This document shows positions 10,681 through 24,327 of a stretch of DNA of 36,577 bases, one piece after another. Below the pieces are notes generated by a model. It saw nothing but the letters and a program-made list of their open reading frames with translations, did not search any database and was not told the origin of the DNA. The DNA comes from Synergistaceae bacterium (GTDB taxonomy: Bacteria; Synergistota; Synergistia; Synergistales; Synergistaceae). How positions within the stretch are numbered: position 1 is the first letter of the stretch; each line of letters opens with the position of its first letter. A program made the translations under genes and the position numbers. The stretch lies in the NCBI GenBank assembly GCA_031290235.1, contig JAITNX010000183.1, forward strand, positions 1 through 36,577. Direction: 5' to 3'.

Positions 10681-10850
10681 GTTCTATTATCTCTATAATA
10701 TATAAAAATAGCAGTCGAAGTAGTAGGGGCTGTGGATTAGTGGAAAATATATCTGAGCCGGCTAAATCAGCAGATATACACTGTGGACATCCTCATATGA
10801 AATGTCTTGATGTTATACACATTTTCCACAAAAAAATTGTGGAAACATCG
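10681..10850. other. Putative oriC unwinding region (dnaA-dnaN intergenic)
   Basis: Box 10731-10739 TGTGGATTA next to GC cluster and TAC/TAC/TTC/GAC/TGC/TAT triplets on the minus strand, then an AT-rich tract. Further boxes: TTATACACA (10813-10821), TTTTCCACA (10822-10830), TGTGGAAAC (10838-10846). Confidence 0.7.
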
Positions 10851-12350: not shown

Positions 12351-12534
12351 TTATCCACCAGATTTATCCACATATACACAATTTTCGGCATGAGGTTTGT
12401 GGATATCATGAAAGGTTGATATAACTATCATGATGGGTATAAGTTTATCCGAAAAAAACATCGTTGTATAAAAAACTGGTCTCAGGCGAAGTGGAAAATA
12501 CGCCAAAGATATACACATGTGTGGATATCTTTGG
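12351..12534. other. Putative oriC DnaA-box cluster upstream of dnaA
   Basis: TTATCCACA at 12364-12372 (perfect), TTATCCACC at 12351, ATATACACA at 12372 and 12509, TGTGGATAT at 12398 and 12520. Confidence 0.65.
12503..12534. repeat. 32-bp near-palindrome in dnaA/DUF362 divergent region
   Basis: CCAAAGATAT-ACACATGTGTGG-ATATCTTTGG: 10-bp perfect outer arms and an inner ACACATGTGT palindrome. Confidence 0.85.
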
Positions 12535-12653
12535 TGGGTAACTTTTGGTTAATATTGAATTTGGGTGTATATATATACACTTGTGTAATATGAGTATTAG
12601 GAAGATAATTTATTGCATATTATAAAATATTTGTCCTAAAAGGAGGGTTTGGG

Positions 12654-13571
12654 ATGAACAGGCGTGAGTTTTTGAAAAAATCCGCTATGATAGGAATAGG
12701 CGCGGGGGTGTTGTTTTTGCCAAAGGGTCTCAAAATAATCGCTTCGCCGGCGGAGTCAGCCGAGAGTTATCCGGACCTGGTGGCCCTGAAGGGCGGAGGG
12801 CTCGAGGCGATGCTCGATCGCGGCATGAAGGAAATCGGCGGCATGGGAAGATTTGTGAGCAAGGGACAGAAGGTACTCATTAAACCGAACATGTCATGGG
12901 ATGTAGCGCCGGACGGAGCCGCTAACACGTCGCCAGAGCTAGTTGCCGCGATAGTTAAGCACTGCCAGGCTGCAGGAGCTTCCAGTGTCGTGGTCATGGA
13001 TCACTCGATAGAGTATTGGGATAACAGCAGAAAAGTCTCCGGCATTGACGACGCGATAAAAAGTGTGGGGGCCATCTATGCGCCATCCGAGAAGGATGGA
13101 TACTATCAGAAAGTATCACTGGACGGTAAAACACTGCGCGAGACGATGATTCACGAAGCACTCCTGGAGTGTGACGTGCTCATTAGCGCTCCAGTCCTGA
13201 AGCACCACGGAGGGGCGGGAGTGAGTATATCGGCAAAGGGTCTCATGGGCTGCATCTGGGATAGAAGGGATTATCACTCGATGGGATTGCAGAACTGCAT
13301 AGCCGATTTTATGCACGCCAAAAAACCGGACCTGAATATCATAGACGCGAACAAGGTCATAACGAGGCATGGTCCGCGCGGCGGTTCGCCAAATGACATC
13401 GTTGACATGAAATCTCTATTGATATCGACCGATATCGTCGCCGCCGATACCGCCGGCGCCATGATGCTCGGCCGCAAACAAGGCGAGATTGAGCACATAA
13501 GGCTGGCTGCCGAGGCTGGTTTCGGCGAGATGGACCTCTCGAAAATAAAGATCGAGAGAATAACTGTGTGA
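12654..13571 (+). CDS. DUF362 domain-containing protein with twin-arginine signal peptide
   Basis: N-terminus MNRREFLKKSAMIGIGAGVLF (RRxFLK Tat signal). DUF362 features VLIKPNMSWD, ISAPVLKHHGGAGVSISAKGLMGCIWDRR; AAAAGGAGGG ribosome-binding site. Confidence 0.9.
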   Translation: MNRREFLKKSAMIGIGAGVLFLPKGLKIIASPAESAESYPDLVALKGGGLEAMLDRGMKEIGGMGRFVSKGQKVLIKPNMSWDVAPDGAANTSPELVAAIVKHCQAAGASSVVVMDHSIEYWDNSRKVSGIDDAIKSVGAIYAPSEKDGYYQKVSLDGKTLRETMIHEALLECDVLISAPVLKHHGGAGVSISAKGLMGCIWDRRDYHSMGLQNCIADFMHAKKPDLNIIDANKVITRHGPRGGSPNDIVDMKSLLISTDIVAADTAGAMMLGRKQGEIEHIRLAAEAGFGEMDLSKIKIERITV

Positions 13572-13592: not shown

Positions 13593-15098
13593 ATGGATAA
13601 AAAATCGGATTCTTTGTCCAGCAGGAGATACTACAAATTCGCGTTTGTCCTCCGATGTTCGGTCGCCGTGTTATTTCTGGCGGCGTTTCTGTTTGTCTAC
13701 GCGAGTTCCAGTCGCAATGATATAACGAGCCGCCTTCTATGGACGCAATTCTCGGGCGGAATTTCGCGCGGCGGCGTCATAAGCGCGCTGTTTATCGGCG
13801 TGGTAGCCTCGGCTCTGATGTTCGGCAGAATATATTGCTCGGTCCTCTGTCCTATGGGTACGCTTCAGGAGATCGTCTGGAGGATATCAGGCAGTATCGG
13901 ACGCGTTTGGGGGAGAAAAAACAAAAAGAGGAGATACGTTCGCCCCTGGAAGATTCGCTATCTCGTTCCCCTGCTCGCGTCGGCCGGATTTGTTCTTGTC
14001 GATCCCCTTCTAGTTATAATTCTCGACCCGATATCAAACTTTGGGAGGGGGATAACTTCCTTGCTGTCCATCTGGAGAGGGGATGTCAGGGGCATTACGA
14101 TAGGTTTCCTCGTGATGTTCGCGGCAATTCTTGTATTATCCGCGGCGAGGGGAAGAAGGTTCTGTGACTGGTGTCCTGTCGGCACGGTTCTTGGGCTGGC
14201 GTCCCGCTTGGCGCCGCTGGGGATGAAAATTGGAGAAGGGTGCGTCTCGTGCGGGATATGCGAGGGAGCGTGCCCAATGAACTGCATCGATGCGGGAGCC
14301 AGGAAACTTGAGCGGGATCGCTGCGTCTTATGCGTTGCCTGCGCCTCGTCTTGTCCGGGTTCTTTCATAAGCTGCGGAGCGGCTGACGCTGCCGGCAGCC
14401 TCGCGAGGGCTGGGCGCAGGGGTTTCTTGAAGGGCGCGGTTCCGTATGTAATGGGCCTCGCTTATCTGTTGGGCAGGAATTTGAGAAATTTATCGGCCGA
14501 TCCATCTGATTTCAGCCGGGCCATGGAGAGGAGCGAGGGGATTGAAGGTGCTATAATGCCACCGGGTGCTGGCGACGTCGTCAACTATTCTTCGCACTGC
14601 GTAGGGTGTCAGGCTTGTGTCGCGGCGTGTCCCGTGAAGGTCATAAAGGCGATTGCTTCCGCAAAACCGGAACTCAGCTACGCCGACGGTTACTGCCAGT
14701 ACAGTTGCGTCGAGTGCGGAAAGGTCTGTCCGTCAGGAGCTATAAGACATCTGTCGGTGGCCGAGAAGAGGATGACCAGAGTTGCCCTCTCGCGCCTTGA
14801 CCTTTCGAAGTGTGTCGTCGTCACGAAATCTCAGGCCTGCGGCGCTTGCGCGGAAGTCTGTCCAACAAGGGCTCTTAGGATGGAGCCCTACGGGGGAAGA
14901 CCGGGCCTGACTATTCCTGTCTTCGAAGAGGAATATTGCATAGGCTGCGGCGCGTGCCTTTACGCATGCCCGGCTCAGCCTAAGGCCTTCACCATAGAGG
15001 GCGCGGCGGCTCAGACTCTGACTCCTGGAATGCGTCCGACGCTGGAGGAGGACGAAGGGCTTCCAGCCTTGCCGGATACGGACGATTTCCCATTTTGA
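13593..15098 (+). CDS. NapH-like membrane polyferredoxin (multiple [4Fe-4S] motifs) with internal Tat-like motif
   Basis: Four hydrophobic segments; CSVLCPMGTLQE and CDWCPVG NapH-type motifs; CVSCGICEGACP, CVLCVACASSCP, CVGCQACVAACP, CVECGKVCP, CGACAEVCP, CIGCGACLYACP; RRGFLKGAVPYVMGLAYLLG in the middle. Confidence 0.9.
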   Translation: MDKKSDSLSSRRYYKFAFVLRCSVAVLFLAAFLFVYASSSRNDITSRLLWTQFSGGISRGGVISALFIGVVASALMFGRIYCSVLCPMGTLQEIVWRISGSIGRVWGRKNKKRRYVRPWKIRYLVPLLASAGFVLVDPLLVIILDPISNFGRGITSLLSIWRGDVRGITIGFLVMFAAILVLSAARGRRFCDWCPVGTVLGLASRLAPLGMKIGEGCVSCGICEGACPMNCIDAGARKLERDRCVLCVACASSCPGSFISCGAADAAGSLARAGRRGFLKGAVPYVMGLAYLLGRNLRNLSADPSDFSRAMERSEGIEGAIMPPGAGDVVNYSSHCVGCQACVAACPVKVIKAIASAKPELSYADGYCQYSCVECGKVCPSGAIRHLSVAEKRMTRVALSRLDLSKCVVVTKSQACGACAEVCPTRALRMEPYGGRPGLTIPVFEEEYCIGCGACLYACPAQPKAFTIEGAAAQTLTPGMRPTLEEDEGLPALPDTDDFPF

Positions 15099-15168: not shown

Positions 15169-15354
15169 ATGAATCTCGGCATGGGCGAAATTGCGCTTCT
15201 CATCATTCTGGCTCTCGTCGTCTTCGGTCCGAAGCGGCTGCCTGACGTCGGAAGGGCCGCCGGCGACGCCATAAGAGAGTTTAAATCGGCAATGAGCGGG
15301 ACGCCTGATTCAAAAAAGGAGACTGAAAAAACTGAAACCAGCTCCACGGAGTGA
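15169..15354 (+). CDS. tatA: Sec-independent translocase TatA/TatE family protein
   Basis: MNLGMGEIALLIILALVVFGPKRLPDVGRAAGDAIREFKSAM: TM plus FGPKRLPD hinge plus amphipathic helix; ATG at 15169. Confidence 0.93.
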   Translation: MNLGMGEIALLIILALVVFGPKRLPDVGRAAGDAIREFKSAMSGTPDSKKETEKTETSSTE

Positions 15355-16081
15355 GAGAGGGGAGGCAAAGTCCTCCGGGGAGTGGGAGGAGCACGTCGGG
15401 GAACTGAGGCGCCGAGTAATTTATGTCCTGGCCGTCTTCATGGCCGCAACTCTCGCCTCGCTGGCTCTCTCCGAACGTATCGCGTCGTTTTTGACGACGC
15501 CGGTAGCGCATTTTGGAGTGAAGCTGTATACGTTCGCTCCGACTGAGAAGTTCATGGCCCATCTTAACATCGCTGTAATGACCGGCGTCGTCTTGTCCGC
15601 GCCGTTTTTCATCCTTCAGGCCGGAGTTTTTATATGGCCCGCGCTGCTTGCGGGCGAAAGAAGGTACGTGGTATTTTCGCTTCTGGCCGTGCCGTTCCTG
15701 TTTCTTGTTGGGGCTGCGGCGGCATACAGCTTTTTTGCGCCGGTCGTGCTTGGTTTCTTCCTCTCGTTTGGGGCAGGCGACGGAGTGGAGGCCATGTGGG
15801 GCCTTGGCCAGTACTTGTCTCTCCTGGCCGGCATGATGCTGGCGACTGGCCTGTTGCTGCAGATGCCGCTGCTTTTGCTGGCGCTTTTCGCTCTGGGCGT
15901 GACGACGCCCCAAAAAATCGCCTCCCTCCGTCCCTATATAGTGTTTCTGATATTCCTGTTGGCCGGGATCCTTACCCCCCCGGACGTGACGAGTCAGATA
16001 ATGCTCGGGGCAGCGCTCTATCTGCTGTTTGAGCTGACGCTGATAATCGGAAGATCTTATTGGAGGGGAAAACATGGATAG
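15353..16081 (+). CDS. tatC: Sec-independent translocase TatC; start codon not identifiable in this frame
   Basis: Multi-TM protein with N-terminal EWEEHVGELRRRVIYVLAV (TatC HxxELRxR signature) and FMAHLNIAVMTGVVLSAPFFILQAGVFIWPAL. The frame is continuous from the stop near 15291, but the first ATG (15440) lies after the conserved motif. Confidence 0.88.
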   Translation, partial: ERGEAKSSGEWEEHVGELRRRVIYVLAVFMAATLASLALSERIASFLTTPVAHFGVKLYTFAPTEKFMAHLNIAVMTGVVLSAPFFILQAGVFIWPALLAGERRYVVFSLLAVPFLFLVGAAAAYSFFAPVVLGFFLSFGAGDGVEAMWGLGQYLSLLAGMMLATGLLLQMPLLLLALFALGVTTPQKIASLRPYIVFLIFLLAGILTPPDVTSQIMLGAALYLLFELTLIIGRSYWRGKHG

Positions 16082-16895
16082 AAATCAAATAGAGGCTTTT
16101 ATGACGCGTTTGATCGACGAGCCTGGAGGTAACTACGTCGCGGAGGACGCCGCCATTTTGCCCGATCTCGTCTCGCTGAAGCTGTTCGAGCGTCCGAATG
16201 CAGGAGTGGCCGCGCACGACGACCGGTATTTCACTAAATGCAAGGAACCTGGGGTCGTCGGGCCTCATTACATGCTTCCATCGGAGTGGCTGCCGGATGC
16301 GAGGAGCGTTATATCCATATTTTTCGGGTTCACCCCGAGGGTCTTGAGCAGCAACGCGGCGGATCGCCGGGAACCTTCCGGCGAGTGGCTCCACGCCCGA
16401 ATAGAGGGGCAGAAGTTCATTTCCTGGGCGATGACTGCCCTGAAGGATGAGTTGGAGCGCTGTGGGCACAGGGCGGTAATTCCGTCGTCAGATCCCCGCT
16501 TCTACGCCGTTGGGCGTCCGGACGAGGCCAGTCGGCCAGGGATGTCCTTCACCAGCGTCTGGTCCGAGAGACATGCGGCCTACGCCTGCGGGCTGGGGAC
16601 ATTTGGGCTGTCGAAGGGCCTGATAACAAAAAATGGCATTGCGGGCAGATTCGGAAGCGTAGTGACGACTCTTTTGCTGCCTCCCACCCCTCGAGATTAC
16701 ACGGAAGTGTACGAGTATTGCATAATGTGCGGCGAATGCGCCAGGCAATGTCCAGTTGGCGCCATTACGATCGAGGGGGGCAAGAAACACCCGATATGCG
16801 GTGAGTATGTCGACGCTACCAAGAAAAAATACGCCCCTCGCTACGGTTGCGGCAAATGCCAAGTGGCAGTCCCATGTCAGAGCGGGAGGCCGTAG
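16074..16895 (+). CDS. QueG-like (epoxyqueuosine reductase-related) 4Fe-4S protein
   Basis: VWSERHAAYACGLGTFGLSKGLITKNGIAGRFGSVVTTLLL...YCIMCGECARQCPVGAITIEGGKKHPICGEY...YGCGKCQVAVPC: arrangement of QueG/reductive-dehalogenase-like ferredoxin proteins. Confidence 0.8.
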   Translation: MDRNQIEAFMTRLIDEPGGNYVAEDAAILPDLVSLKLFERPNAGVAAHDDRYFTKCKEPGVVGPHYMLPSEWLPDARSVISIFFGFTPRVLSSNAADRREPSGEWLHARIEGQKFISWAMTALKDELERCGHRAVIPSSDPRFYAVGRPDEASRPGMSFTSVWSERHAAYACGLGTFGLSKGLITKNGIAGRFGSVVTTLLLPPTPRDYTEVYEYCIMCGECARQCPVGAITIEGGKKHPICGEYVDATKKKYAPRYGCGKCQVAVPCQSGRP

Positions 16896-20087: not shown

Positions 20088-20106
20088 GGCTGCCCCCCTA
20101 TCCGCG
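20081..20106. terminator. Possible shared hairpin terminator between convergent epimerase and SNF2 genes
   Basis: GCGATAGGGCTGCCCCCCTATCCGCG: GATAGGG/CCCTATC stem spanning the 10-bp convergent gap; no clear U tract. Confidence 0.4.
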
Positions 20107-23100
20107 TATCAGCTCGATAATCTCGTCCGACGAAAGTTTCAGGGGAATCTCGGCCTCGTCCAGGAGGCTCTCGGCAAGGTCTCGCTTCCATGAGTGGAGA
20201 TCGACAATTTTTTCCTCTATCGTATTTTTGGCGACGATTCTGTAAACAGTGACAGGCCTCGTCTGTCCTATCCTGTGGGTGCGATCAGAGGCCTGTTCCT
20301 CTACCGCTGGGTTCCACCACGGATCCATGTGAATGACGTAGTCGGCGGCGGTCAGGTTCAGCCCTGTCCCTCCGGCCCTGAGGCTGATGAGGAATACGTC
20401 CCCCTCGCCAGCCTGAAATGCCTTGACCCTTCGCGCTCTCTCTGAAACCGGCGTAGATCCGTCGAGGTACTGGTAGGGCACGCCGTTTTGATCCAGGTTG
20501 CCGCGGAGTATGGAGAGGTGGGAGACGAACTGGCTGAAGACGAGGGCTCTGTGCCCGCCCGCCCGCAGGTCTTCCATTATCTCAGAGAAGGCGTCGAGCT
20601 TTGCGGAGGGATACGGCGCGCTTCCATGGGGCATCACCAGGGATGCGTTGCAGCAGGCCCTTCTGAGGCGCGTCAGTTGCGCGAATATGAGGAAGCGCGC
20701 GTCAAGGCCCTGGTACGACGCCAGCTCCTCTATAGCGTTCAGCCGTATAGCCTCATACAGCGCCCGCTCGTCCGGCTTCATATCAACTCGCATGGTCACC
20801 TCGGTCTTGGGTGGCAGCTCCGTCAATACCGCTCCTTTTGTTCTTCTCAGGACGAACGGGGATATGATTCGCTTCAGCCTGCTGCTCGCGCTCTTGCTTC
20901 CATCCCTCTCTATCGGTATCGCGAAGCGCGCCGAAAATGACTCGGCGGCGCCAAGCACCGCTGGGTTGATGAAGCGGAAGATGTTCCACAGCTCGAACAG
21001 GTTGTTCTCTATCGGCGTGCCTGTGGTCGCTATCCGAAAATTACCGCGCAGTTTCATTATGGCGGCGCTTCTCTTCGTGGCCGCATTTTTTATCGCCTGT
21101 GCCTCGTCCAGCACAATTGTGTTCCACTCGATCATCGACAGCCTCGTGCCCTCGTTCAGCAACAGGCCATATGACACCACCAGGACGTCCATCGCGCCAA
21201 TGTTTTCCATTGAGCGCTCCCTGTCCTCGTTCCTGAAGTCGATCATGTTCAGGGTCGGTGTAAATCGGGCCGACTCTTCGAGCCAGTTGGCGCATACCGA
21301 CGTTGGCGCGGCGACGAGCGCGGGGCCGTCGGGGGCCCGGGAGAGCAGTACGGCAAGGGCCTGAATGGTCTTGCCCAGGCCCATGTCGTCCGCGAGGCAC
21401 GCGCCGGCGCCCCAGTGCGCGAGGCGCATCAGCCATCTATATCCCTCGGTTTGGTATCCCCTGAGTTCGCCCTTGAAGGTCGCTGGCGGATCGGGCGACA
21501 TGAGTGACGCCTCGTCCACCAGAGCTGCGATCTTCTTCCACTCCTCGCTCCCGTCGAACGATCCGGCGATTTCCGCCAATGGAGAGATGAATGGCGCGGC
21601 GGTCAGTGGAAATCTCATTATGTCTCCATGGGCCTCGCCCACCGACGACAGGTCATCCAGCCGCCGGCGGAATTCTTCGGCGAGGGCCGCGAACTTCCCT
21701 TCGCCAATGGTGATGAACCGGCCGGACGATGCGCGAATGAGCTTCAACAACTCGCCGAAACCAAGCACAAGTCCATCTTCCACTTTAACATGTCCGCTCG
21801 CCGCGAGCCACTCCCGCGAGTTGTGCATGGAGATGCTCATAGAGGATGGATTGAGGCTTGTGACAGACATAGCTCCGCCCTTGGGCCACTCTATCGTGAC
21901 CGACCTGGAGATCGGCCCCAACTGAAGCAGAAACTCCAGAGACGTCTCGACGTCCAGAATCTGCCATCGGTTCTCCGATATCTGGTCCGCCTTGGAGAGT
22001 GCCCAGCATGAACTGACGAGAAAAAAGAGAGCTCCGGTCTCGGCAGTGAGGTCTCGCCTGGTTTGTACACGGCGTCCTCCCGACAGGCCGAACATGTTCG
22101 TTCCCCCTACGCCAGGGCTGCACGACGGTCCATCCCGTCCAAGGGGACGCGTAAGGGCCTCGACGTCCAGCCCAACTCCGCGAGGCTGAAGCTGAACACA
22201 GAGTCCGGAGTCCGGGGGCACGAACTCAGGACCACCTGTGATCCCTTCTATGTCGGAGTGTACAGTGACAATGGAGGAGACGCTGTTCAGCGTCCCCAAT
22301 ATCGCGTCTCTCGCGGATTCAGGCACTGAAAGTCCCTTGGGGCCCAGTATTCTGGCCATCTTGAAGTGGCGTTCGTCCAAGAGGGTTATCTTGAGGCGGT
22401 TATGTCCTTCCTCTGTGAGGATCATGCCGCTATTGCGATCAAACACGTTTGGGTATGGAGTCATAGAGAGCAGATATCCGGCTCCAGATTTACCCAGGGA
22501 TCGCGCCAGGATCCTTGGCGTCTCCGCCGTTATCTCTACGACGCCTCCGTCCTCCGCCCGCTCGAGGTATGGGTGTCCCGCTAGCAGCCGCAGTATGTTG
22601 GACACGTCTATGTAGAACTCGCCGCCCCAGTGGTTGTGGTTTTTCTTTATGGCCTGAAGCGCGGTCCTGTCCCTATCAGTGAAGCCGCCCACCGTCTCCG
22701 GGTTTTCTATCAGCCGTTTTAGCGCGACAGGCTTTCCCTTGCTCCATTTTCCCTTGTCGGAGATTGTCCGCTCAAGCGGCCTGATCCTGGTCGCGCTGGG
22801 GACGCCGTTCTCGCTTGGTCTCCATGATATTTCCCAAACAAGCCTTGCCCCGGATGTATTCTTCTGAATTTCTCCGGTTTCGGCAAGGAGGGATAGCGAG
22901 CGCCTCCAGTCCGCCTCGAGTTCAAGAAGGTTTTTCAAGGAGTATGGCGGGGCTGGGGATGAATCGAATTTCTCCGCGCTCTCCGGGAGAAGATCCTTGA
23001 TAATGGACGCCATTTGACGCGCGAAGTAGTCCATGCCGAGAGTCTCCATCCGTTTGTACGAATCTAGCGCCGCGTCGAAGTGTTCGCCGGCGCTTTTTGC

Positions 23101-24327
23101 GTCTATCCAGGAGGCGCAAAGCATAAAAAAGAAGGGGTCCAATACGTGCTTTGGCACGAGCAGACTGTCGATTATCTCATGGGCGAAGATCCCGCTCCTG
23201 CCCGAGCCCTCCGCAAAGATAAATTTTATCATCTTGTGGGAATCCCTCAGGCAGGCGCCAGGGACAGTGGCCGATTCGATATACGAGTCTAGGTTCTTTC
23301 GTGTTTTTGCGGAGAGAGGAAGCCCCTGAGTCAGCTCGCCGCGCGCCGTCAATATTGGGTAGAAGACTCCGCACCACAGGGGAAACGAGACCTTGCGTTT
23401 TTTAGTTTCGCTCCTTAGCATTTTCATGCCCTCGTCGTAGTGGAGCAAAGCTTCGTCAGCGTTCCCGCGCATTGTACACAATCCGCCCCTCACGCACTCC
23501 GTGCCGGAGTTCCTGCCTCTCGCCTCCAGAGATTCAAGGAGACTTTCAGCCTCGTCCAAGCGCCCCAGGAGGAGTTCGTCCAGGCAGATAGTCATAGCGA
23601 GGCTCGAGGAGTCATAGTACGACTCCCAATACTTTTTCAGGATCCCGCGAAGAATCGGCGCTTCCTCTGTCGAGCTTGAAAAAAACGACATCGCTATATC
23701 CAGGGAGGGCGCGCCAATCTCCTCCGGCAGTCCGGAGAGCACTCCATCGTCAATGGGGTTGCATAGGATCTCCACGACTGGGTGAAGATGCTGAGGTCCA
23801 AACATTGCCCTCGTCGTCTCCTCCGGCCTTGCGTTGGCCGAATCGCCGAAAAGTTTCGAGTGAAGCTCCGAGTCGCCTGAGTAATATGCGCGCCTGGCCT
23901 CCCTGTAGAAGGCCGCGGCGCGGACGCATGAATCCTTTTTCTCGAACATCGAGCGTTTGGGTGCCATCTCCGGCAGTTTGCGGACGGCGTCGTCAAAATA
24001 ACCGAACTCGCCGTTCGCGATCGCCTCTCTGGTAGCTGGTTCGCGCGTCAGCCTGCCGCAAAACCAGTATTTATGACCAGAGATAATGACGCTCTCAACG
24101 AGTCCGGCCGTTTCCCATCTCTCTATCATCGACGCGGTATTCTCGGCGAATCGCCGCTTCGTCGAACCCTTCAACCCCTCCACGACAGCCATGCAGGCAG
24201 TCGTTATTTTCCCAATGCTCATGGGGACATATATGACTGACAACAGCCTATAAGCCCTTCGCTCGTGGGACGGCAGAGCGCTGTAAAGGTTCATGAGTTC
24301 CTGTCTTTTTTTCTCGTCGAATAACAT
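20098..24327 (-). CDS. Large SNF2-family DEAD/DEAH helicase (1409 aa) with long N-terminal extension
   Basis: LADDMGLGKTIQALAVLLS (motif I), VLDEAQAIKN (II), TTGTPIENNLFELWNIFRFI (III), LISLRAGGTGLNLTAADYVIHMDPWWNPAVEEQASDRTHRIGQTRPVTVYRIV (V/VI). Confidence 0.95.
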   Translation of the reverse strand: MLFDEKKRQELMNLYSALPSHERRAYRLLSVIYVPMSIGKITTACMAVVEGLKGSTKRRFAENTASMIERWETAGLVESVIISGHKYWFCGRLTREPATREAIANGEFGYFDDAVRKLPEMAPKRSMFEKKDSCVRAAAFYREARRAYYSGDSELHSKLFGDSANARPEETTRAMFGPQHLHPVVEILCNPIDDGVLSGLPEEIGAPSLDIAMSFFSSSTEEAPILRGILKKYWESYYDSSSLAMTICLDELLLGRLDEAESLLESLEARGRNSGTECVRGGLCTMRGNADEALLHYDEGMKMLRSETKKRKVSFPLWCGVFYPILTARGELTQGLPLSAKTRKNLDSYIESATVPGACLRDSHKMIKFIFAEGSGRSGIFAHEIIDSLLVPKHVLDPFFFMLCASWIDAKSAGEHFDAALDSYKRMETLGMDYFARQMASIIKDLLPESAEKFDSSPAPPYSLKNLLELEADWRRSLSLLAETGEIQKNTSGARLVWEISWRPSENGVPSATRIRPLERTISDKGKWSKGKPVALKRLIENPETVGGFTDRDRTALQAIKKNHNHWGGEFYIDVSNILRLLAGHPYLERAEDGGVVEITAETPRILARSLGKSGAGYLLSMTPYPNVFDRNSGMILTEEGHNRLKITLLDERHFKMARILGPKGLSVPESARDAILGTLNSVSSIVTVHSDIEGITGGPEFVPPDSGLCVQLQPRGVGLDVEALTRPLGRDGPSCSPGVGGTNMFGLSGGRRVQTRRDLTAETGALFFLVSSCWALSKADQISENRWQILDVETSLEFLLQLGPISRSVTIEWPKGGAMSVTSLNPSSMSISMHNSREWLAASGHVKVEDGLVLGFGELLKLIRASSGRFITIGEGKFAALAEEFRRRLDDLSSVGEAHGDIMRFPLTAAPFISPLAEIAGSFDGSEEWKKIAALVDEASLMSPDPPATFKGELRGYQTEGYRWLMRLAHWGAGACLADDMGLGKTIQALAVLLSRAPDGPALVAAPTSVCANWLEESARFTPTLNMIDFRNEDRERSMENIGAMDVLVVSYGLLLNEGTRLSMIEWNTIVLDEAQAIKNAATKRSAAIMKLRGNFRIATTGTPIENNLFELWNIFRFINPAVLGAAESFSARFAIPIERDGSKSASSRLKRIISPFVLRRTKGAVLTELPPKTEVTMRVDMKPDERALYEAIRLNAIEELASYQGLDARFLIFAQLTRLRRACCNASLVMPHGSAPYPSAKLDAFSEIMEDLRAGGHRALVFSQFVSHLSILRGNLDQNGVPYQYLDGSTPVSERARRVKAFQAGEGDVFLISLRAGGTGLNLTAADYVIHMDPWWNPAVEEQASDRTHRIGQTRPVTVYRIVAKNTIEEKIVDLHSWKRDLAESLLDEAEIPLKLSSDEIIELIRG

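Follow-up and report, generated by a model that had tools for sequence, protein, structure and literature searches.

In the Nap systems (periplasmic nitrate reductase), NapH and NapG are two proteins: NapH works with quinol, and NapG is a separate protein that bears a Tat signal. A family of NapH-NapG fusions, termed "polyferredoxins," was found by Tooke and colleagues with a pattern search of prokaryotic genomes (Tooke et al. 2017, eLife 6:e26577; PMC5449189). The member from MLMS-1 (Q1NSB0) has five transmembrane helices (TMs), a twin arginine (RR) before TM5, and seven clusters, of which three are inside and four are outside (PMC5449189). When MBP or AmiA was joined to its TM region, the fusions were exported in E. 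coli; changing RR to KK abolished the export of both, and export of the AmiA fusion was lost in a tat mutant (PMC5449189). Release from Sec was governed by the low hydrophobicity of TM5 and by positive charge at its C-terminal end, and in a related case, Sco3746, the last helix partly used Sec (PMC5449189).

The actinobacterial Rieske protein (QcrA) likewise uses Sec for its early helices and Tat for the last one, and its folded Fe-S domain is exported (PMC5449189). As for Tat genes that are linked to their cargo, the Tat genes of phoD-tatAd-tatCd in Bacillus subtilis adjoin and specifically serve their own substrate (PMC3827258).

We analyzed a complete 36.6-kb contig ("the window") from the draft genome of a Synergistaceae bacterium (2.48 Mb, 94% complete). 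A first-pass annotation, made from the sequence alone, had described a membrane polyferredoxin that is encoded next to tatA and tatC and had proposed that it is inserted by both Sec and Tat. It had overlooked the DUF362 gene of the operon, whose product bears a Tat signal of its own. Taking the evidence as a whole, we think it highly likely that the window encodes a dual Sec/Tat polyferredoxin with clusters on both faces of the membrane and with the DUF362 protein as its likely partner. Because two-machine insertion was established for the family in 2017, the window protein opens no new mechanism; the useful part is the neighborhood, which gives a candidate partner (DUF362) for the polyferredoxin family. 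The features of the operon, all on the + strand, are:

12654..13571, +: DUF362 protein (PF04015, Pfam E = 1e-46), 305 amino acids, with an N-terminal Tat signal (MNRREFLKKSAMIGIGAGVLFLP; TIGR01409 over cut-off)
13593..15098, +: polyferredoxin (PFD, NapH-NapG fusion type), 501 amino acids, identified by translation, matches to NapH/NapG/NapF models, and the family alignment
13635..14150, +: four Sec-type hydrophobic segments, NapH-like, residues about 15-186, from hydropathy and the positive-inside count
13836..14354, +: cysteine sets predicted to be on the cytoplasmic side, CX3CP (82/86) with CX2CPVG (191/194) and the ferredoxin sets 217-227 and 244-254, invariant in the alignment
14415..14486, +: residues 275-298, comprising the internal Tat motif (RRGFLK) and the weak TM5, at whose end are the basic residues R295 and R298
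14598..14969, +: C-terminal four-cluster domain, NapG/NapF-like, residues 336-459, predicted to be extracytoplasmic (16 invariant cysteines; matches to napF, napG and mauM_napG)
15084..15095, +: conserved tail DFPF, whose FPF is the last three residues (F499 in 34/36 homologs, P500 in 34/36, F501 in 35/36)
15169..15354, +: tatA, 61 amino acids (PF02416, E = 2e-19), the single clear TatA/B/E family match in the genome assembly
15308..16081, +: tatC (PF00902, E = 3e-49), the sole copy in the genome

Architecture of the polyferredoxin

The polyferredoxin gene is an intact open reading frame of 501 codons with an ATG start. Hydropathy places its four N-terminal hydrophobic segments at residues about 15-37, 58-80, 122-144, and 163-186, and the same region matches Fer4_5 (PF12801), with a weak match to the napH_ model TIGR02163 at residues 63-257. 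The NapH-type motifs are CSVLCP and CDWCPVG. The N-terminal tail is rich in positive charge, as are loops 2 and 4 (11 and 12 lysines or arginines, versus 2 each in loops 1 and 3). This enrichment suggests that the N terminus is inside and that the first three clusters are cytoplasmic; the C-terminal domain would then be extracytoplasmic. An AlphaFold model from three input sequences had a mean pLDDT of 33 and was unusable.

Three sets of cysteines precede TM5 (82/86/191/194, 217/220/223/227, and 244/247/250/254) and four follow it (336/339/342/346, 368/372/375/379, 407/416/419/423, and 449/452/455/459). All 28 of these cysteines are invariant across 36 aligned homologs (35 from Synergistota, including the window protein, and one from Stygiobacter). 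A homolog of about 50% identity comes from another Synergistaceae bacterium (L012). These sets are predicted to hold seven [4Fe-4S] clusters, three before TM5 (at the cytoplasmic face, if the topology is as we propose) and four after it. The translation confirms the positions and motifs that the first-pass annotation gave, and the four hydrophobic segments and the split of the clusters around TM5 that it described are borne out by hydropathy and by the alignment.

Like the NapH-NapG pair, the protein combines a membrane half resembling NapH, which has CX3CP-type motifs and two cysteine sets of the ferredoxin type, with a NapG-like half that holds four clusters and would be exported by Tat; unlike the pair, it is a single protein. 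Its matches to the NapH and NapG models are partial and do not reach the cut-offs for NapH (53 bits versus 213 for TIGR02163; 42 versus 234 for NF007013) or for NapG (43 versus 269 for NF007012; 38 versus 179 for TIGR00397), and no nap genes adjoin the locus. Judging by these scores, the polyferredoxin is a relative of NapH and not NapH itself.

The D/E-FPF tail is near-invariant in most homologs from two bacterial groups. We considered whether it might be a docking tag for DUF362 and rejected this, as the two do not co-vary: a related subfamily that lacks the tail still has DUF362 adjoining, and no DUF362 gene is present in the stretch that we fetched for one tail-bearing member.

A conserved twin arginine before a weak fifth helix

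The RR codons (CGC AGG) at 14415-14420 encode residues 275-276. They begin the motif RRGFLK (residues 275-280), which fits the Tat consensus RRxFLK. The residues that follow (278-298) are weakly hydrophobic: the maximum over 19 residues is 0.93 (segment 278-296), as compared to 2.51 for TM1. (Hydrophobicity was gauged with Kyte-Doolittle values and by plainly adding up Hessa-scale values.) Across the alignment, 35 of 36 homologs have a TM5 that is less hydrophobic than their TM1, and all 36 have at least one lysine or arginine within the 24 residues after TM5.

R276 is present in all 36 aligned homologs and R275 in 35, the remaining homolog having KR. Between C254 and P323, these are the only two positions that reach 90% conservation; the other positions of the linker are variable. 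Of 25 homologs from the class of Stygiobacter, 14 have RR and 11 have KR. Combining the two sets, which share the Stygiobacter protein, gives 60 distinct proteins, with RR in 49 and KR in 11, so that a basic pair is present in every one and arginine is always in second place. That RR or KR is kept while the surrounding linker drifts implies that the twin arginine is meaningful. By chance, a motif of the form RR.F[LIV][KRSTNQ] arises in 159 of 20,000 shuffles of the polyferredoxin (0.8%), which is not decisive; the conservation is the stronger evidence. KR is a natural variant of the internal pair (loci L095-L101, L103, L104, L106, and L116). In a more distant subfamily that lacks the FPF tail, RR is present in 10 of 11 loci; the eleventh (L202) was missed by the pattern that we used.

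The proposal that RR and a short TM form a Tat-like signal thus fits the conserved pair, the weak TM5, and the basic residues behind it. The Tat-signal models TIGR01409 and PF10518, both of which are built on N-terminal signals, miss the internal motif.

With the polyferredoxins of Tooke and colleagues, the window protein has in common the NapH-NapG fusion, an even number of helices (four) before RR and one directly after it (from hydropathy and the charge pattern), the conserved twin arginine, a weak TM5 followed by positive charge, and seven cysteine sets arranged 3+4. It is shorter before TM5 than Q1NSB0 is (TM5 at about 278-298 versus 338-359). Assignment of the window protein to the dual Sec/Tat polyferredoxin family, as a member from Synergistota, is well supported by this architecture, as opposed to an alignment to Q1NSB0. 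By analogy with the MLMS-1 homolog, whose Tat dependence was demonstrated, it is very probably inserted by Sec and then by Tat, as the first-pass annotation had proposed. That annotation had taken the Rieske protein as the known paradigm. The published polyferredoxin family, being dual Sec/Tat itself, supersedes it as the sole paradigm. QcrA is unrelated in sequence, carries one Rieske [2Fe-2S] cluster, has three TMs, and is part of cytochrome bc1 (PMC5449189).

Alternative topologies

We considered three other explanations for these features. If the C-terminal ferredoxin domain were cytoplasmic, then residues 275-298 would be a loop or a surface helix, and the protein would be a one-sided polyferredoxin with four TMs. 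Cytoplasmic polyferredoxins are common (MvhB and FwdF, for example), and the low Kyte-Doolittle value of segment 278-296 (0.93) is poorer still in some homologs. However, the published work describes low hydrophobicity as the mark of the family's Tat-dependent helix (PMC5449189), a loop would not be expected to retain RR or KR amid a drifting linker, and the linkage to tatAC would then depend on the DUF362 gene alone. We consider a cytoplasmic C-terminal domain to be highly improbable. That Sec alone inserts all five helices, with RR as a mere positive-inside topology signal, strikes us as extremely improbable: a folded Fe-S domain cannot pass through Sec. Two arginines at the inner end of a helix can act as such a signal, and the last helix of Sco3746 partly uses Sec (PMC5449189). 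However, every homolog has basic residues behind TM5, TM5 is poorly hydrophobic compared to TM1, and the change of RR to KK, which preserves the charge, abolished export for MLMS-1 (PMC5449189).

Alternatively, TM5 might be cleaved after export, which would free a soluble four-cluster domain similar to NapG, so that the gene would functionally encode two proteins. NapG itself is a stand-alone protein that bears a Tat signal, and some homologs of the second class have short segments that resemble signal peptides and end in AQ or VQG. The window protein, in contrast, lacks a clear signal peptidase site (LAYLLGRNLRNL) and has basic residues directly behind the helix, and Tooke and colleagues needed to engineer a cleavage site (PMC5449189). 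Cleavage of the window protein is very unlikely.

Conserved linkage to DUF362 and tatAC

As the first-pass annotation had noticed, tatA and tatC are next door: they follow the polyferredoxin gene within one operon. The gene order DUF362 - polyferredoxin - tatA - tatC recurs throughout Synergistota. Among the 44 Synergistota genomes with the polyferredoxin, tatC is directly adjoining in 37, about 2 kb away in one, and on another contig in four; it was not detected in two, which are 55% and 77% complete. Across 188 genomes, TatC is present in 42 of 44 genomes with the polyferredoxin versus 29 of 144 genomes without it (Fisher P = 2.6e-20, which overstates the independence of the genomes, as they are related to each other). 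One genome that we scored as lacking the polyferredoxin (G002) has a contig (L077, 1-126) that opens in the last codons of the gene, ending in DDFPF, just before tatA.

DUF362 is directly upstream of the polyferredoxin in nearly all of the homologous loci from the two bacterial groups. Of the 25 best loci from the Stygiobacter class, 24 retain DUF362 together with the polyferredoxin; Stygiobacter itself has its tatC on a different contig. The N-terminal RR of DUF362 is present in all 55 distinct homologs with an intact start (four of which were read by eye), which implies that Tat should be required for two of the proteins that the operon encodes.

The species in Table 5 of Tooke and colleagues include no Synergistota, and their main text does not mention DUF362 or tatC, so the gene linkage was not reported there. 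We found no paper joining DUF362 and the polyferredoxin in the literature that we searched, and as far as that literature shows, the conserved linkage to DUF362 and tatAC has not been described before.

A putative electron line across the membrane

Under the dual Sec/Tat explanation, Sec would insert TM1-4, with clusters one to three remaining on the cytoplasmic side. TM5 would be rejected by Sec, being too weakly hydrophobic and having too much positive charge behind it. Once released, the C-terminal domain would fold and acquire its four clusters in the cytoplasm; the neighboring TatAC would then recognize RRGFLK, export the folded domain, and release TM5 into the bilayer. Outside, this domain would give electrons to, or take them from, an extracytoplasmic partner; the likeliest one is the DUF362 protein, which is exported by Tat and presumably soluble. 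The other end of the line would be the inner clusters or the quinone pool. NapH works with quinol, and given the likeness of the inner half to NapH, the electrons could come from quinol or from a cytoplasmic ferredoxin. The sequence establishes the anatomy, the conservation, and the operon structure; the topology of the window protein, the filling of its clusters, the partnership with DUF362, and the direction of electron flow are inferred from them.

DUF362 belongs to the same Pfam clan (CL0471) as the LarA family (DUF2088) (PMC11770544). Among PDB structures, the one that best matched a fold model of the DUF362 protein (mean pLDDT 48) was that of a LarA-like nickel-pincer enzyme (E = 4e-3, TM 0.30); this agrees with the clan assignment, and the match is too weak to rest on. 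The clan and the model hint that a cofactor might be loaded in the cytoplasm, which would account for the Tat signal of DUF362.

A possibly dedicated Tat system

The window genome encodes one TatC and one clear TatA. Besides the DUF362 gene, TIGR01409 has just one match across the genome (C194:3037), which we rejected because it is a spurious frame within another gene. Two pattern scans of the genome (for a ribosome-binding site, a start codon, and RRxF) found no further convincing Tat signal: other candidates with RRxF near the start were out of frame, were without a hydrophobic stretch, or resembled Sec signals. Atypical signals and genes absent from the assembly would escape these scans. 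It is possible that the Tat system works almost exclusively for its own operon. If so, its cargoes might number just two, the soluble DUF362 protein and the dual Sec/Tat polyferredoxin, and it would be a compact natural model for the handover from Sec to Tat. In phoD-tatAd-tatCd the Tat genes also adjoin their substrate; the cargo here differs, as it is a module for electron transfer, one part of which is a polytopic substrate of both Sec and Tat. A bolder version, which we offer as speculation and think somewhat doubtful, is that the four genes make up a self-sufficient cassette for export and electron transfer, that TatAC serves essentially one transmembrane electron line (the polyferredoxin and the DUF362 protein), and that DUF362 is an unrecognized extracytoplasmic redox enzyme of the LarA clan that is fed with electrons from the cytoplasm or from quinone.

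The start of tatC and the flanking genes

The open frame of tatC begins at 15296 and encodes the conserved EEHxxELRRR at 15386-15415, and it contains no in-frame ATG, GTG, or TTG before 15440, which lies inside the protein. In a relative from the same genus (G003), tatC is also without an ATG, GTG, or TTG start, and the frame opens with ATT (the observation covers 15296-15440 of the window and position 7755 of L046). Because both genomes lack a usual start, initiation at a rare codon (ATT or CTG) is more probable than an error in the assembly. We also considered a fusion of tatA to tatC by frameshifting at a slippery A AAA AAG in tatA and rejected it, as the -1 frame hits early stops.

The gene after tatC (16074-16895, + strand) encodes a 4Fe-4S protein with weak scores to models of reductive dehalogenase and QueG; it was not seen beside tatC in related loci. 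Farther away (20098-24327, - strand) is a gene for a 1409-amino-acid protein with a C-terminal Snf2-type helicase, which is distantly similar to ZorD and DrmD of defense systems and scores well below the cut-off for the SCO1167/SCO6262 helicase.

On the other side of the operon, sites that resemble DnaA boxes flank both ends of dnaA (10813-10830, 12364-12372, and 12410-12653), and chance could by itself account for their number (8 of 100 shuffles). About 250 bp separate dnaA from the start of the operon, and the sign of the GC skew switches close by, which together suggest that the operon lies beside the probable origin of chromosomal replication.
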